Positions 50,907-63,680 of a DNA stretch of 64,000 nt are shown here, piece by piece; the stretch's first letter is position 1; each line of letters opens with the position of its first letter. Source of the stretch: Paramecium tetraurelia (lineage: Eukaryota > Ciliophora > Oligohymenophorea > Peniculida > Parameciidae); the NCBI RefSeq assembly GCF_000165425.1, contig NW_001799030.1, positions 62,001 through 126,000 of the forward strand, given 5' to 3'. The notes beneath the pieces were generated by a model. It had not been told where the DNA came from. It did not search any database and was given only the letters and a program-made list of their open reading frames with translations. A program made the translations under genes and the position numbers.

Positions 50907-53125
50907 TCAAATAGTAAATATATTCATTAGTTATTTTTGATTGAAAATATTATATTTTACCGATAGGTGTTATAATTGAAGTTTAATAAATAGCAGTTCC
51001 AAGTGATTTGCATCTGAAGTGGATTCCTTAAGATTTTGTTCCAAAAACACTACCAATTTACCCAATCCAAATCCAGAATGGATTGATAAGAACTGTGTTG
51101 TCACAAAATCGGATAATAAACTGTCTATCTTTTCTTTTTTATTGAATAGGTGCTCAACCTTCTTGATAATTTCTAAGAATATTTGCAAGAGTTGGTTTGA
51201 AACTTTCTTTTAATCCTCTAGATTCCTCTCACTATACACATGCTTATTAATTTGATATTTCAGACTCTTCAATTAGAAATGCCACTATTTGTTATAGATG
51301 TCATTCGAGTCGATAATATTCTTAATACTATTTAATTAGTATAATAGCTTCTTAATTTGAATTAGATCGTCTACCTATTCTTAGAATTGATCCTAATTTA
51401 GTAAATTCTCAATATTATTATATTGTAGCCTATCAAATTCATACGCAATCTTCTTGATCCCCTTATATATTTAACATTAAATTCTCTGAGAGTCTTATGG
51501 ATTCATCAGAGTGTTTTTCTCTTCTAATCGTTTTAGATTATTAGGAGACAATGGAATTTGTCTTGTGATTTCATTTATTCTTGTTGTCTAAATCTTATTC
51601 TCCAATCCCAAATTATCTAATTGGGCTAAGCTCTATACTTTTATCGAAAAAATCTCATCACATTCATCTGACAATTGTGATTAATAGAATATCTCATTTT
51701 TTGTTAGGATATGTTGAATCTCTACTTTCTAAAAGCCCTTCAAATATTTGTAAATGGTTAAGTCATTCTTTAAATAATCGATTGGAATCAAATCATGATA
51801 ATCTTTCTAAAATATGAACTCAGGAAATTTGTAGATGAAGAATTTTACAATATAAATCTGTCTAGTAAGGACTGCCAAATGCAAGCAATTGTGCTTTTAC
51901 TTTTAGGTTTTCTGTCTGAAATTGAACTTGTATTCTTTCTGTTTATAGACGTATTCAATCACTTAGATGTATCCTTTTTATACAGCCAAGTGAATAGGAG
52001 TGTAGCCATTATGATTGATATGATTGCCATTGACTCCATTCTTCAATAGCAATTGCAGAATCTTTTGAGCCTCTGCTTCATTCATTTAATACACACAAAA
52101 TAAGTAATGAATACTATTATTACCGTAAATATCTTATTCATGCAATCCTACATTTCGCTTGATTAAATCAAACACTAAATAATATTATAATTTAGATACT
52201 GCAATATTTAAACAACTCTTAGCCCATGAACTATATATTAATTATAAACATACGCTCCTTTATTTGGGTCAGCATTTGCATATAACAAATATCTTGCTGC
52301 TAAATATTTCTCTTCCCAAATCGACAATCCTAAAGGAGAGTAATCATCCTGATTAATTTCGTCAATCTAGAATTTTTTGGGTTCCGACAGCAGTATTCTC
52401 AGCATCCCAATATCCTCATCCAATATTGTCTAGTGTATTTTATATTGGATCTAAATGTCTTTGTCCTGGTACTTTAAGGCAAATTGTTTAAATGCAATCG
52501 AACTTAACAATTGTTTTGCTGATATCGTTTCGCCTGTGCAACATAATTCAATCGTGTGAAACAACTGATATATCAGCTCTTGGGATTGAAATAACTCCTG
52601 AACTCCTGGATCTCCATACTTGAACCAATCAAGTTGGAACACATTTAGAGTATCTATGTTAATCACTTTAATACATTTTAGTTTGGTGATGCTCTTTGGG
52701 ATCTCCATGAAACTGTTATGTGAGATGAACAATTGATCAAGCTACAATAAGTCGCCTATGTCAGCAGAAATTTTCTTAATATGATTTTATGATATGTCCA
52801 ATTGCTGCAAATGCTTGAATTTTCCAAATTAGAACTCTTATAATAGATTATTTCTGATAAACAATATTTCCAAATTCTTAAATCCATCCAAAATATTGTA
52901 ATCTAATTGTTTAATGTAGTTGTCATTCAAATTTAAAGATATCAATTTTTTTAGTTTCCCCAATCCATCTGGGAATGCAGTAATTCTCGTCTATTATAAT
53001 GAGAGATGTTTCAAAGATTCGTCAAAATCTTGCTGATTATTCTAAAAAGCAAACCTAGGCACTGCACTCTTTTAATTGATTTTGCTTCTAGTTACTTAGA
53101 GTTATAAATCGTATTCCTAATCCAT
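50907..53125 (-). CDS. LRR-ankyrin repeat protein
   Basis: Predicted 731 aa with one 23-nt intron (52231-52253). Residues ~40-200 are leucine-rich repeats (LKHLSLQQTRITAFPDGL; LISLNLNDNYIKQLD; LEILFIRNNLLQEF; LDQLFISHNSFMEIPKSI). Residues ~285-450 hold ankyrin-type repeats (DYSPLGLSIWEEKYLAARYLL; GYTPIHLAVQKGYIQVIEYV; HNCLHLAVLTRQIYIVKFFI). The last ~280 residues are helical and charged. LRR and ankyrin modules are both protein-binding scaffolds; the combination in one chain with no enzymatic domain suggests an adaptor. It starts 177 bp from the divergent SAM-cyclin gene. Confidence 0.88.
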
Positions 53126-53302: not shown

Positions 53303-55645
53303 ATGAAGTAGTGGGAGAAGCAATAAAGTCAGAAGCTCTATGAAAAGCGAATCCAGCATGCCAAAGCGCAAGTGCCTGTTTCAAATAAGAAGAAATCAAC
53401 TAAAGTGAACGAATCAATGAATTCCATGAATTCCTCCATTTCAGGATTCACACACAAAGAAAAAGAAGATAAGGAATCAATCCCTCTATACAAATTGTTG
53501 AAATTGTATCAGCTGTAATAATATGCTCAATAACTAATAACAAGAGGATATGGGTATGATTTAATTAAATTTGCGATGCTCACAGACAATTAAATTGAAT
53601 ATTTGTTCAATGACATCAAAGTATTGCCAGGCCACAAAGTCAAACTCCTGGATCTGATAGCCTACATTAAAGAGATTATTACACCTTCAAACTCATCCAA
53701 ATTTAGAAACACTAGTTATACAAAAAAAAATAGTAAAATCATAACACAATAAAAACCCAAAACAAGTTAAACTTAAAGAATAAAACCACAATAACAATAA
53801 TAATAATAATAATAACAATAATATTAACAATAATAACAATAATAATAATAAATACAAGCCATCAACAAATAAAAGCAAATGAAAATTACAAACATTGGCT
53901 TTGATTTTTTCTAAGATGAGAGTGATTATGAAGATGAATTCAATTAAGCACTAAACTAAATTATGGAGAAATACAAAGGAGACACAACTACAATTATTAA
54001 TTCTAATAATTAGACCCTCTAAAATCAATATAGTAAACCAATATTAACAAAAACTAATAATTTTTTATAAACTACAACAGGACCAATATTATCTGATACC
54101 AGCAGAACTCATACAAAACCAAAAGCAAAAGATGATATCATCTTGGTTAGTAAATTTCAAGATGATAAATTGGTTACAGAAGTTAAGGAGAACAAGTAAT
54201 TTAGACTTATGATTTTAGGTTGATAAAGAATTTGGAGAAGCAATTAAATTAGAAAAGAAGAAAGAGAAATTTTGAAGAGGATGAAAATTTGCCAGATTTA
54301 CAAATGTCCTAAATTAAACACATGTACTTATCCTATGATACTGGTAAATTGACTTCAACCCTTGTGAATTTGGATATTGAGGAAATGAGTAATTGCCTAG
54401 CTTGGGCTATATTGAAGCATATACAATTTAGTAAGAGGATTAACTATTCGACAATGAAAAATTCCAGTATTCCTTTCTCCATGGATATAAGATTTCGTGG
54501 AACTGGCATGAATTACTAAGATACTTCCTAAAATCCAATTGAAGAACCAACTCAATTGCATCTTTATAGTGAATAACAATAATAACAATAGATAGGATTA
54601 TTCTAATCATAATAAATATCAAAATTAGATAAAACCAATTTGAGTAATAAGTAGAATAAGACCTTGGCCTAAATAAGTGAGAAAACCTTAAGCAAAGACG
54701 AAAATGAGTTTGAGATTAAGAAGTAGGAAATATAAGATATTTTGAAGGAAAGTTATCTTCATAATGAGTAATTTGATAATGAAGAAAATGATGACTACTA
54801 ATAAGATTATGATGTTTGTTCAGAGGAAGAAAATGATAATGAAAATTAAATTATTTAGGTTTAATAGAATGAGTCAGACTCTTTTAGTCCCATTAAACCT
54901 AAATATATATAACATTAGTAATAATAATTGGTTAAAGTCAATAATATCTCTGAAGAATCTTTACAACATATTGAGGATTCTTAAAAAATATACAACTACT
55001 CTCAAAGTATGCAGTATTAAGAGTAATAATCCTTATTTTAATCTAAATTTGACTTTATTGAGATGGAAGAGGATGACAAAGAAATTAAGCTCTAATACTA
55101 AAAAATTTATTTTGATGTTAATTCTGAGTAAGTTATACCAACAGCAGAAGTTGTAAGTAACTATTGTAAAAATGTTATAATAACTTCAAAAATGGAAAAG
55201 GAAGTGACAATTCTTTGTCTGGTTTACATAGAAAGATTATTAACATTAGCTAATATTAGTTTAGAACCATAAACCTGGAAAAGAGTAGTTCTTATATCAT
55301 TGGTATTTCTCTTTATTATAATATTAGATTATTGCATCTAAGATTTGGGATGATGAATCCTTTGAGAATGACAATTTTGCAAAAGTGTTTCCCCAATATA
55401 GAACAAAAGATATTAATGAAATGGAAAGAATATTTCTGATGTTATTAGATTATAGACTTCAAGTATATCCAGCTGAATATGCAAAATACTATTTTATTTT
55501 GAGAATGTATACAGAAAGCAAAAAGAGAAGTTTTCCTTTACGCCCATTAGATTTAAATACTATCATGAAATTACAAAAGTAATCCAACCAGGCAGAATTT
55601 GGATTGAAGTAAAAGTATGGACAAAGTTTAAATAAATCTTTTTGA
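53303..55645 (+). CDS. SAM domain - polyQ - cyclin Y-like fusion protein
   Basis: Predicted 764 aa with introns 54196-54218 (23 nt) and 55303-55327 (25 nt). Residues ~65-130 form a SAM-like domain (YAQQLITRGYGYDLIKF, TDNQIEYLFNDI, PGHKVKLLDLIAYI). A polyQ tract (11 Q, one Y, 9 Q; 53789-53851) is written mostly with TAA. The C-terminal ~180 residues are a cyclin box of the cyclin Y/PHO80 type: VTILCLVYIERLLTLANI, TWKRVVLISLIIASKIWDDE, DINEMERIFLMLLDYRLQV, YAKYYFILRMYTE. The second intron restores LISLIIASK. The first intron is what joins the two halves; if it is not spliced, the SAM half ends at TGA 54221 and the cyclin would need a start near 54304. Confidence 0.8.
53789..53851 (+). repeat. 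PolyQ-encoding TAA/CAA trinucleotide tract
   Basis: Twenty-one consecutive codons read CAA or TAA (Gln) apart from one TAT (Tyr). Read with the standard code it would be a string of stops; on the opposite strand it gives a false Leu-rich frame. Confidence 0.9.
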
Positions 55646-56196: not shown

Positions 56197-59100
56197 ATGA
56201 TTTTTATAATATAACAAATATTGATTGCTGATTTCTTTCTACGAGGGAATTGTTTAGATATATGCAATCAATAGTTATCCTATTCATCATGTATCAATAG
56301 CATCGAGGGTTAATGTATGTGGGATTCAGTGAGAAATCATTGTCAACACACGAATGATTATATGCAAGGATGTAGTACTTTTTTGAATTTGTTGGCTTGT
56401 TAAAAGTAATTAGGAGATGCCCTAGGTTAGTTTGCAAAATGTATAATATAAGATTGAAATAGGTCGATTCAAAAAATTCTGTGAAAATATTCCTGATGTA
56501 TTGACTGAAACATGTTATAATAATTTATCAAAGTATGGATGTTTATCTGTTTAAAATCCAAAATAGATTTGCATTTGGAAAAATCAGAAATGTTATTTCC
56601 TAGGAACATCATCATAATCAAGTTTAATATAAAATGATTTCGATAAGATGATGTATAGCGCGTCTGCTTGTTCACTTATAGAACATTATTTAGTGATTCA
56701 TAGTAGTTTATTATGGAATCTCACCTCATACATTCCTGATTTACAATTAGAGGCGTTTCAACAATAATAAAGAGATTTGAATATTATTGACACTGACGAT
56801 ATAAATTTCGATGACCCAAGCCTAAATGAGATGCAGAATAACTATTTAACAAAAAACGGAAAGTTTATTTGGTATAAATTAGGAAAATCTCTCTAATTTA
56901 GTTAAACAAATTGTAAAATATTGATTGATATATTAAGTGTAAATATCAAATAGATTTCGAGAAGGCTGTATTGCATTAGAAATATATGATGACGATGACT
57001 TTTACTCAATTTTTAGTGTATAAGGTGAAATCTTAGGTGTAAATCATGTGTATTGCAAATATTTAAATTAAAATCCTCAAATAAACTAAAAATATATATT
57101 CATAGATAATAAATGTGTGAAGTTTGATACAAATGAATTAGCAAACTAAAGAATTATAGAGGAGTATAACATAAATTGTAAATCATTAGATAAATATTAA
57201 TGTATATTTTTTAACCCAAAAGAATATAATTGTTAAATAGAAGATGATTAAAACGAATATTAGTGCGTGGAAGTTTAAAATGATTATGAAATTGATTGTA
57301 GTGATGCATTTTGCACTATCAAACAATGTCAAAAATTAGATAATCATTATATTGATTTAGGTACTAATATGTGTGTTAATACTTGTACTTCAATTTCAAA
57401 TATGAATGAATGTCTAAGTCAGGATTGCAATTATTTAGGAGTTAAGAGTACATAATCGGAAATCATTTGTGCACCGATAAATATATGCAATTAAATCGGT
57501 TTAACCAAATCTGGTTGCATATTCTTAAGAGCAAAATGTGATTGGGATAATAATGAAAATAAATGTTATGAATTGCAGGACAATGCGATTTCTTTAATGA
57601 AATGTTCAGATGTCTAAAACTTACATGTTTGCACTCTCATATCATTAAGCGATTAGTTGTGTTATTGGTCTGAACTGATGATGAAATGCATCAACATACT
57701 CGATTAACCACTATTGATGGTACAAACTATATTTATGGACAGAAATTTAGATGAAAATTATTAATAATAAATAAGTTTGGTTTGCAATTTGAATCTCTGT
57801 AAATATAACTCTTTGCTAGCAACTGAGTTTGATGAGGTAAAAAGAGTATGCTTATTCGATTAATTAAATTTGAATAAAAACTTAGCCTTAATAAACAAAT
57901 ATGATTGTCTCCACAATTTTAAAGGTTATTATCTATGGAATTAGGAGAAGTAGATTTGTTAAAAATTTGAATAATCCCAAATCAAAAATCAATATTGTTT
58001 GGAATTGGTAGATGTAAATGAACGATTTTGTCAATATAGTAAGTTATCTTCAATTACTGTTCGATGTGTTTATGATTAAATCACTACTTCCTGTATTGAA
58101 AAAACTGAAAATGAGGTAAATATTTTGGGGTGTTCAGGGAATGGATTATCAGAAGAGAAATGTTTAAATAACAATATTAAAGGACAGTTTTGTACTTATT
58201 AAGATGAATTGTGTATGGAAGTTTCCATAAATACCATTAATAATCTAAAGTGCTCATCTCTAATTAATGTAAATGAATAGATTTGTAGAATGTATTTTAT
58301 TAATAAAACACTTTGTAAATATAATGAGGTTACTCATTCATGCATTGAATTAAGTTCAACGGATTTAATAGAATATAATTACAATTTAAATAGGTATGCA
58401 TGTTAGGCAGTGTCAGATAGTTATACATACTTTGATGAGTAGATAAATAGGTGTATTGAATTTGATTCAACCTCAGATATTTATTTAATGAAACTAAAAT
58501 GCGAAGAAAAATATGTTAATAAATTGACATGTTTAAGTATTATAACTGATGGACAATTATGTATTTGGAGTACATCTCTAAACTAATGCAAAAATTATTT
58601 TGATAATTTTCCTAGTTGTTCATTTTTTGAAAATGGTAGTAGTTAAACATGTGTTAAATTGAAAAATATGAATAAATAGGAATCTACGATGGAAAATTAT
58701 TGTGTATATTAAGATAATAAATGTATCTCAAAAATAGAAAATTAGATTGATTGTGGAGATGAGGATATAATGAATATTCATCGTTGTAGTGGTATGACAG
58801 GGATTGACTAAGATGGCTATTTTGTGTAAATGTGTGCTTTTGTTGCTAAAAAGTGTATAACATTGATCGATTCCAGCATGGATACAGAAATAATACTAAA
58901 CACAATTACTTGTGAATAAGCAAATTAGAAATCTTGTGGATAAGTGAAAACTCCTGGTTAATTTTGCTATATCACAAAATCATCAGATATCAATAATATC
59001 ATAATAAATAAAGGATGCAGATTTCAGAAATTGGATAAGAAGTATTGTTATTTGTTGAATTATAAATATGGAGAAGATATTAATTTATTAAATCCAAAAA

Positions 59101-62100
59101 TATGTTCATAAGCAACCGATGAGTGCATTTATGATTCAGCAGAAGGTTGCATGTCTATTTATGATACAACTTTAAATTATGATTGTGAGCAGCCAGGAAT
59201 ATCATATAAGTTATGTATAAGTTAGACAAAAGAACGTAGATGTGCTTTTATAGACAAGACTTGTAAATATATTTCAGAAAATTATGTATTTACAAAGGAT
59301 TGCAAATATCTTAATGAATTTGCTTGTTCCTCGTCTCCATTTATTTAATGTGTTTGGAATGAATATTATATGGAATGCGAGCTTATGAGTTTTTATTACA
59401 TAGAATCAATTACTAGTGATTATTTCTGTTCTTCTAATCACGATAATATATTCATGATATCTGGTGAAACTGAATGTATTGAAATAGACTAAGCTGATTA
59501 CAATTTATACACTTGTGATACTCCAGGGTTGAATAAGTATGGTTGCTATTCAATTCCAACATAATATTGTCAATACCTAAATAATAAGTGTTAATTTTAT
59601 TCTTCAGTATTGTGTGATGATACCACTTTTGAATGTGAATCAAATGATACTAATGATTAATAATGTGTATTTAAGGATGGTTAATGTTTTGCCATAACAA
59701 ATACTCTCTTTGATTGTGATTCTTTTGAGAAGACTAATTACCTATTTTGTCTTTAATACCCTAATTGCATTTATAAAGATTCTCAATGCTAATAGATTAA
59801 ATAATATCAGAAATACACAGATTGTTAGAGTATCGATAATGTTACTACATGTACTGTCTAAAACAGTGAACACTAATGTTAATATATAGAAGAATGTGAT
59901 AGTCTTGATTAGCTCTTAGATATCTGTCCATCTCTTTCTGGGTATTATTCAAGAAGTGTATGTTCAAATTTCTAGGATTGTTAATATGGATACACAAAAA
60001 ATGGTTTTGGCTTTTGTTTTTAAGGATAAAACATAGTTGAATTAACTTGTGAACAATTACCTTAAGATCTCTGTTTATCAGATTTATCCCATTTAAATGG
60101 TGATCTGACATGCTTTTGGGATAGTACTGAGGAAACATGCAGGAATGTATAAAATTATAATATTCTGACTTGTGATGATTTATCATAGTATAAATCCAGT
60201 TATGCTGCATGTATGCACATTGGTAATAATGATTGTAAGTACTCCTTTCAAGACAATAAATGTAAATTAGTGAATGAATACTTTGGTACAACTTGTCAGG
60301 GATCTACTAAGTAATAATGTGATTAGATTGAATCCATCTGTTATTTTAAAGCTTCCACATGTGTAAAATCTGGAACTAATGATCAAATTAATAAATATGG
60401 ATGCATCCATCAAACAGGCTATTACAAATACCACCAAGGAAGTTGCAAATTATTAGAATCTACAGATTATCAGTAATCTTGCCAAAATCTTTCTAAAGAT
60501 GCTTGTTTGAGTGAACTCACTAAAGAAATTCATTGTAGATGGATAAATGAAAAGTGCAAAACTGTACTCATATAGGAAAATAAGGAAATATCTTCATGTT
60601 CAGATTTAAATCAAAGAGTTTGTCTAGAAGTTGCACTTTCCAATATTCAGTGTAAATGGAATTCTGAAATCAAAAGCTGTGAAACAATTATAATCACTCA
60701 GTTCGATTGCACTTTGACTGATTAAACTAATAATACATCTAAAAGTTTATGCAGTGGTCAAACATCTAATTATTGTGTAAGACGCCTTGATGGGACTGAA
60801 TGTTCTCCTGCTACTACTAAAATTAATTCTTGCGTTCTTTTTGGATTGAATTTGAATGCTTGTGTAGAATTAACTAATGATGTACCCTGTATATGGAAGT
60901 AATACAACAACGGAGGATATTGTGAAAATGCAAATCTATATTAATCTTAATGTTCAGATCTACTCAACGAAAAGGCTTGCATGAATGTGAAGAATTTAGG
61001 GTAACATTGTAAGTGGGATATCGATCAAAAACGTTGTTAATTTTAAGAGATTACAACCTGTTCATCAGCAAGTTACCTTAATGGAATTCTACCATGTAAA
61101 GCTGTATCTGAAGAACTTTGTTAATATGATGAATTATTTAATTAATGCAAAAAGATAATTGATACACTAACAGATTGCTCTGAACTCTATAATTAATAAG
61201 CTTGCATTTAATCTAGCAAAGGTTGTGTTTGGAATTTGAACTCTTGCAAGTAATAAATATTATTAAGGTGTGAATTGTTTTTAAATAAATTTGTCTGTTT
61301 GAATAACCAATAAGTTGGATGCTAATGGGTTGATAATTAGTGTGAATCATTTGAATCTATATACCAAAAGATTTATTGTGTAAATCTGCCAAAAGGACTC
61401 AATAAATTTGCTTGTCTAACTAATGCAATGGATCCTTGTAATTTAAATTTTCAATTAGAGATGTGCCTACCATCCCAATCATTTTCCCAGAATTTTGATG
61501 ATTATGTTTCTGTTTCACAACTTCTAGAGATTTAAACCTTGGATTATCCATAACCATTATTGTTTAATTAATGCGAATAATTTGAAACTAAACACGATTG
61601 TATTCATTCAAGAAAAGAAGATTAACCCTGTGTTTGGATTGAAACATGTCAAAGAGTGACCAATTTTGATAAATTGAAATGTTCGGATGCACTCAACATC
61701 TGGGGTTGTTTAGGTATTACAAGTACCAATTAACTTTGCTTTTGGAATCATAAATGTTTAAATTGGAATTAAGATAACCCAATTATGTCAAATGTTAATA
61801 TAAATGTTTGCATTAATCATAGTATAAGTAGCATATATTCTAAGAATTCCTGTTAAGTCAAGGATCTATAAACAATAGATTGCACATCGGTTGGAATAAG
61901 TAAACTAACATGTTTATCAATTCCTAATTAACCTTGTTAATGGATAGCATCACTTAATCAGTGTTAAAAATTTGTTTAAGACAATAAAAAAAATAAATGT
62001 TCAGATTATTAATTAGTTTCACCTTTTGTTTGTTAAATGCTCTCAGATTATGCTTGTATTCATGATACAGATACATTTAGTTGTATTACAACTGATCAAG

Positions 62101-63680
62101 ATAATTAAATGATAGGTCTATCTAAATTGGCATGTCTTCAAAATAATTAAAAACCTGTGTATTGGAACGAAACTAATTATTGTGAAGACTTGAAAATATA
62201 AATAACTTGTGATTCTAAATTGTAAGTTAACTCAATTGCTTGTTAAAGCATTTCTGACACCCCTTGTTTATACAATAATAAATTAAATTAATGCATTAGC
62301 TAATTTAATGTATGGTCACTCACATGTGACGCAGCTGGTTTAAATCTACATGCATGCAGCATGGTCCTTTAAGAACCATGTATCTTTAGGAATAATAAGT
62401 GTTAGAAATTTAATGATTATTAGTCATCTTGTATCACTGTAAAGAATGTAAATGCTTTGGCTTGTGCATCGATAATTAATGAAAATTGTATATATGATTC
62501 TGTAAAACTATAATGTAATGTTCCTATCTATCAATCTAATACTTGTAATGTTTCTGGCAAAAATAAAATGTTTTGTGAAACAAATTCTCTATGCAATTGG
62601 AGTTAAGAAAAGTTAATGTGTACATGTATTGAATTCCAATCAGAAATTTGCAAATTTGATAAAATTAATGAATGCAAAGCAAACTCAAATTGTTATTTCA
62701 ATGGTAATTAATGCACCAGAAAATAGTGTTATCATTTAAAATCAGAAGATTGCAATTCCATTTTAGATGATAAATAATGCTACTTAAATAATTTAAATGA
62801 TTGTCAATCAGCAAGTAGATGTGAAGATATTATTGATTCAAAGTTACCATGTTCTAACTATGTTATCAATTCTATTCAATGCAGTTAAGCAGGGAATCAA
62901 TGTGCTTCATCTAATAATCTAGATCTATATTGTCCATACTCTGATTGCTCAAATCCTAAATGCAAATATCAATTTGGTATTTGTAAAGTTAGAACTTGCT
63001 CTGATTACAGTATCAAAGATTGCAATGGTGTAGGTGGTTGCTATTTAGATTCAAATAAGATATGCTAAATACTAAGTTCGTGCTCTTTGGTAAATAATTA
63101 TGGAGAGTCTGCTATGAATATTTGCAATCAATTATCAGTATAAGGTTTTAGATGCAATTGGCAGAAAATGTCTCTATTAGATTCTATTGAAGTGTGTACA
63201 AGTCAACCATGTCAATTATATGGATCATCAAAAAGTTTATGCCATGGAAATGAAATAAATGGCTATTCATGCATTCTTTCTAATTCATTGATTTGTTCAT
63301 AATGTGAACAAATTGTAGAGAAGTGCCAATGTGAAAATTAATAATAGATCTGTTCTTATGCTAATGGTAAATGTGTTTCAATCTTATGTTCTTCCTTCCT
63401 GACAAAGGTTGAATGTTTATAGGCATAAGACCGTTGTTATTGGAGTGCTCAATTGAAAGAGGATAATTCTATTGTTGAGAAATGTGTAAAAGAATGCATT
63501 AAAATTATTGATTCAGATGAATGTACTTCTAGATCGAAGGAATGTTACTATGAACCTTTGCAGATGAAGTGTATGAAGGGTCAAAAACAGGTCATAGATT
63601 TAAGCACTGATATCATTATTGAAGAATTCTATTCCCATGTCATGTCAACTTTGATCCTAATTTTTATTTTATTGTCATGA
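56197..63680 (+). CDS. Giant cysteine-rich surface antigen with PSA-type repeats
   Basis: Predicted 2477 aa with two introns (56441-56462 and 56937-56964; 22 and 28 nt). The N-terminus MIFIIQQILIADFFL is a signal peptide; the C-terminus MSTLILIFILLS is a short hydrophobic tail with no cytosolic part, as in GPI-anchored proteins. The body is made of ~60-70-residue repeats with regularly spaced cysteines and a recurring C-x-W-(x)n-C pattern (INSIEGQCMWD; ICIWKNQKC; PCVWIETC; RCYWSAQ), typical of Paramecium surface antigen (PSA) repeats in immobilisation antigens and related proteins. It would form part of the cell-surface coat. No frame break in 7.4 kb, so it looks functional. Confidence 0.92.

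Follow-up and report, generated by a model that had tools for sequence, protein, structure and literature searches.

Human cyclin Y is held at the membrane through its myristoylated N-terminus, for which an N-terminal Gly is used. According to the relevant part of PMC4613515, cyclin Y activates CDK16/PCTAIRE-1, and 14-3-3 binds two of its phosphoserines (Ser100 and Ser326 in human). In a 64,000-nucleotide stretch of DNA (the window, C77:62001-126000 of a searched genome of 69.07 Mb in 231 contigs), we detected a predicted gene on the forward strand (53303-55645) that almost certainly encodes a single protein of 764 amino acids, in which a divergent SAM-like domain is fused to a cyclin Y-type cyclin. 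The ciliate protein has the same type of cyclin box as cyclin Y (CCNY/CCNYL1), both by profile comparison with PDB and in a tree of the boxes, but differs in its SAM-like N-terminal half, in an acidic Q/N-rich stretch of 137-230 residues, and in starting with MK-x-W, without the Gly needed for myristoylation.

The PHO80/Pcl cyclins share a match to the Pfam family Cyclin (PF08613), but PHO80 is a distant second in PDB (1.7e-6). SAM domains of the Caskin/ANKS1/EphA2 type are the sole kind matched in PDB at E<=10 by the family profile, whereas the ciliate domain is too divergent for the Pfam cut-off and is joined to a cyclin. Within the same genome, a plain cyclin Y-like protein (C221) carries a cyclin Y-type box but is not among the SAM-like matches, its gene model being incomplete at the 5' end. 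None of the literature titles and abstract openings that we searched announces a fusion of SAM and cyclin; as the coverage excluded most subscription journals and the ciliate domain databases, novelty is stated here only as "not found".

Gene structure

The window reads as Paramecium-type macronuclear genome, and long frames appear in it when TAA and TAG are read as Gln but not under the standard code. Translated with genetic code 6, the gene comprises three exons (53303-54195, 54219-55302, and 55328-55645) that join in frame to 2295 nucleotides, namely 764 codons and a TGA. Exon 1 contains the conserved MK-x-W N-terminal motif, the SAM-like domain, a polyglutamine (polyQ) tract and a linker, and ends after the second base of codon 298. 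Exon 2 encodes the junction, a conserved block preceding the cyclin box (the pre-box block), the acidic Q/N-rich insert and the start of the cyclin box, the remainder of which lies in exon 3 together with the C-terminus (...NKSF) and the stop (TGA, 55643-55645).

The gene model and the comparison with related copies show both predicted introns. The first (54196-54218, forward strand, 23 nucleotides, GTAATTTAGACTTATGATTTTAG) has the form GTA...TAG and, if retained, leads to a TGA at 54221-54223. The second (55303-55327, forward strand, 25 nucleotides, GTATTTCTCTTTATTATAATATTAG) lies inside the cyclin box and has to be removed because the box is otherwise not open; its removal yields ...SLIIASKIWDDESFEN..., colinear with three copies elsewhere in the genome (C153, C191, and C175) that are intronless at that point. 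The preliminary description of this locus had placed the 23-nucleotide intron exactly where we find it but lacked the second one.

A family of six loci

Searching the genome with the SAM-like half of the window gene identified four loci at E<=1, and the corresponding domain of C191 identified six at E<=10 (six of six candidates scored): C77 (the window), C49, C153, C191, C175, and C160. The cyclin half as query gave 22 matches, comprising the same six loci, C221 and weaker cyclins. A cyclin half is present at all six SAM-like loci, in each case with the SAM-like half upstream on the same strand. The same join at six genomic places therefore points to a gene family and not to a reading error, and supports the view that cyclins of the cyclin Y type that contain a SAM-like domain form a small predicted family conserved in this genome.

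We compared gene models for C153, C191, C175, and C160 (that of C153 was trimmed from a longer model to the aligning Met). The four keep the order of parts: MK-x-W motif, SAM-like domain, linker, pre-box block, acidic linker and cyclin box. Three of them (C153, C191, and C175) have an intron where the SAM-like domain begins, after which a single exon carries the remaining part of the domain along with the pre-box block. In the C160 model, one exon carries the entire domain and the block; eight extra residues there are perhaps an unremoved intron. With the pre-box block and at least most of the SAM-like domain encoded by a single exon, these four paralogues require no splicing at the join. The splice point of the window gene (KENK/LIKNL) aligns with contiguous codons in each of them (KDNKLLKKL in C153 and C191, KPNKFINKL in C175 and C160). 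The models of C153, C191, and C175 run to the end. That of C160 changes frame in the linker between the acidic stretch and the cyclin box with no predicted intron to explain it, and its box frame is nevertheless open to the same C-terminus; decay of this copy, a mistake in the assembly or an atypical intron may be the cause. C49, the copy closest to the window gene, is a broken one, interrupted by TGA codons and shifts of frame. It carries a 24-nucleotide insert (GTACTATAAAATTATCATCTTAAG, GTA..AAG) exactly at the intron 1 site of the window gene, with gap-free flanks on both sides. The insert thus supports this intron site and suggests that intron 1 predates the duplication that separated C49 from the window copy.

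The ratio of nonsynonymous to synonymous substitution rates (dN/dS) between C153 and C191 was 0.15 in the N-terminus, 0.14 in the SAM-like domain, 0.15 in the first linker, 0.05 in the junction (28 codons), 0.06 in the pre-box block, 0.15 in the second linker and 0.04 in the box. For C175 and C160 the values were 0.14, 0.21, 0.27, 0.02 (26 codons), 0.18, and 0.37 in the same order; the frame change of C160 inflates the last of these and is the reason why the box was left out. Between the window copy and C191, the box gave a dN/dS of 0.18 at a dS of 2.3, near saturation. The low values in the paralogue pairs show that both halves and the join are constrained as protein, and since purifying selection has preserved the architecture in several duplicates, the family is evidently functional.

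The N-terminal domain

The SAM-like domain (53483-53680, forward strand; approximately residues 61-126) contains an LPGHK helix and probably adopts a divergent SAM fold, judging from profile comparisons. All 16 PDB sequences that the family profile matched at E<=10 bear SAM domains, either by name or because they are recognised members, Caskin and EphA2 among them (best E 0.0022); the count includes 2eam, which we take to be SAM-bearing. Comparison by hhalign with ten canonical SAM domains of the same genome gave a P of 7e-4 but a probability of 26.7 (controls, 0.4 and 0.7), and placed the LPGHK helix opposite the LGHRK helix of these domains. The Pfam results weigh against the assignment: the window protein scores 13.6 bits with SAM_1 against a curated cut-off of 23, and only two of five family members match at E<=1. 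We use the name "SAM-like" because this cut-off is not reached. The genome has 23 SAM_1 matches (18 that pass the cut-off alone and two more that pass with their neighbours), all of them outside the six SAM-cyclin loci. The SAM assignment is thus weaker than that of the cyclin, and the "SAM" of the preliminary description stands as a divergent SAM-like domain by PDB profile and hhalign, not as a Pfam-level member. Alternatively, the domain could be another small helical bundle and the protein a cyclin Y extended at its N-terminus in this lineage only. We consider this unlikely, given that every PDB match of the profile is SAM-bearing and that the helix aligns with that of canonical SAM domains from the same genome.

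The cyclin half

A domain search of the joined protein, as had been proposed earlier, recovered the cyclin half with Cyclin_N (6e-11) and Cyclin (PF08613, 1.1e-10) and left SAM_1 under its cut-off. The box delimited by Cyclin_N extends over residues 588-703 (55087-55459, forward strand) and is interrupted by intron 2. With the family profile, Cyclin-Y (9r2i, E 4.4e-30) and PHO80 were the only PDB matches at E<=0.01; the 9r2i alignment spans Cyclin-Y residues 168-302, including the motif ASKVWDD of human Cyclin-Y, which reads ASKIWDD in the ciliate protein. The box tree sets the five fused boxes apart by a branch (86/89), and the five fused copies group with C221 and human CCNY (100/99, a grouping to which a long-branch warning applies), opposite the ten other cyclin boxes included from the genome. 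Of the earlier label "cyclin Y/PHO80-type", we therefore keep cyclin Y, on the evidence of profile and tree, and drop PHO80 as a distant second. The N-terminus begins with MKQW or MKKW in all five aligned copies and offers no Gly for myristoylation; because this Gly is missing, we call the protein cyclin Y-type and not an orthologue of animal cyclin Y.

Upstream of the box lies the conserved pre-box block (54313-54423, forward strand, IKHMYLSYDTGKLTSTLVNLDIEEMSNCLAWAILKHI), in which 18 of 48 columns are invariant among five aligned copies (C49 left out). A profile of its 48 positions from these five copies had no match in PDB at E<=10. The block is separated from the box by the acidic Q/N-rich stretch (54423-55087 in the window gene, with 42 D+E vs 22 K+R; 137-230 residues in the four copies measured).

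Another possibility is a pseudo-cyclin, whose cyclin half would have lost the ability to activate a kinase, leaving a protein that serves as a SAM scaffold. The long insert between pre-box block and box would fit such a protein, as would the result of an exact DNA pattern search of the genome for P[C/F/S]TAIRE (Ser as TCY only), which found one site, PSTAIRE, and neither PCTAIRE nor PFTAIRE, although motifs that are variant or split by an intron escape this pattern. We regard a pseudo-cyclin as improbable, since the box is the most constrained part of the C153/C191 pair and the ASKIWDD motif is retained.

The join between the two halves

We analysed the window with a small purpose-written gene finder that took its codon use and background from the window itself and for which we fixed the intron lengths and splice weights by hand; in later rounds its training set included the fusion gene under test. 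It predicted 17 genes and kept 36 introns of 22-30 nucleotides, of which 35 start with GTA and 30 end with TAG (four with AAG and two with CAG). Exactly the fused gene, with its 23- and 25-nucleotide introns, was among the predictions. At three gene densities and otherwise identical parameters, the fused model outscored two genes (53303-54223 and 54304-55645) by 12.4, 13.4, and 14.1 log units. When intron 1 was barred, the best model was 5.6 log units worse and still fused, not split. The cyclin half has its first Met at 54304. Between intron 1 and this Met lie 28 whole codons (54220-54303), with a coding log-odds of +6.0 in the fused frame vs -6.5 and -8.7 in the other two. The preliminary description had called these codons protein-like and in frame, which holds, but had counted 30. 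Its preference for a fusion over two genes is borne out by the gene finder, by the four paralogues that are unspliced at the join and by the broken duplicate with an insert at the intron site.

Regulated retention of intron 1 would let some mRNAs end at the TGA at 54223, so that splicing sets the cyclin dose, with either a 306-residue SAM-only protein or loss of the mRNA by nonsense-mediated decay as the outcome. Consistent with this, intron 1 is 23 nucleotides long, not a multiple of three, and leads immediately to a TGA if kept. Counting likewise in its favour, stopless introns whose length is a multiple of three are counter-selected in Paramecium, a pattern that policing of retention by decay would produce (reported in a section of PMC5485702, on Paramecium annotation). 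Such a stop upon retention is, however, ordinary for Paramecium introns, and the models of C153, C191, C175, and C160 have no intron at this site, which makes a regulatory role quite doubtful. Two adjacent genes, a SAM-like protein stopping at 54221-54223 and a separate cyclin from the ATG at 54304, are very improbable: both signals exist, but this arrangement scores 12-14 log units lower, would leave an intergenic gap of just 80 nucleotides, and is at odds with the stop-free reading of the join in one exon in four paralogues and with purifying selection on the junction codons in two paralogue pairs.

Possible function

As cyclin Y does for CDK16, the cyclin part of the fused protein would bind and activate a kinase of the cyclin-dependent kinase (CDK) family, an activity that we think likely by analogy and because the box is conserved. 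The SAM-like domain would bind itself or another SAM protein, and these contacts could cluster the kinase complex or hold it at one cellular place; such clustering or anchoring is somewhat favoured. A SAM domain that polymerises or localises a CDK complex, as the preliminary description proposed, is plausible. Since proteins starting with MKQW or MKKW cannot use myristoylation, the SAM-like domain may be a reasonable substitute anchor or clustering device. We find the explanation as a whole reasonably convincing, namely a single gene in which a linker connects a divergent SAM-like domain to a cyclin Y-type cyclin, with putative clustering or anchoring of a kinase. With a SAM-like domain inside a cyclin, a single polypeptide would combine the activation of a kinase with assembly in space.

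When ciliates divide, they place cyclins and kinases at exact positions in the cortex, an example being Tetrahymena CdaA, there called cyclin E (as presented in part of PMC10565251). Tentatively, the loci could represent a dedicated, duplicated cyclin family of Paramecium-type ciliates, whose SAM-like domain oligomerises kinase-activating cyclins or tethers them to a scaffold in the cortex or nucleus. If this were true, CDK activity would be set by the site of cyclin polymerisation rather than by cyclin synthesis and destruction.

C-terminus, polyQ tract and neighbouring genes

An identical NKSF-stop C-terminus is present in all five readable copies (window 55628-55645, C153, C191, C175, and C160, the last in its box frame), which suggests that the C-terminus may serve as a docking signal. 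For the NKSF end, 14-3-3 would be a candidate partner, since a terminal phosphoserine-X suits it.

The polyQ tract (53789-53851, forward strand; residues 163-183, mostly TAA codons) is found only in the window copy and is absent from the four other aligned copies (C49 left out), which indicates that it is not part of the conserved architecture. The order SAM-polyQ-cyclin had been described correctly, but the reported tract of 20 Gln consists of 11 Gln, a Tyr and 9 Gln. Q-rich tracts are common in ciliates that use this code (stated in part of PMC10942620).

Downstream of the fused gene, a very long cysteine-rich protein of approximately 2405 codons is predicted (56362-63680, forward strand), which by eye resembles Paramecium surface proteins; its 2251-residue open frame had no Pfam match at E<=0.001. 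On the other side, the divergently transcribed neighbour (50907-53125, reverse strand) is predicted to be a single gene encoding leucine-rich repeats followed by ankyrin repeats.
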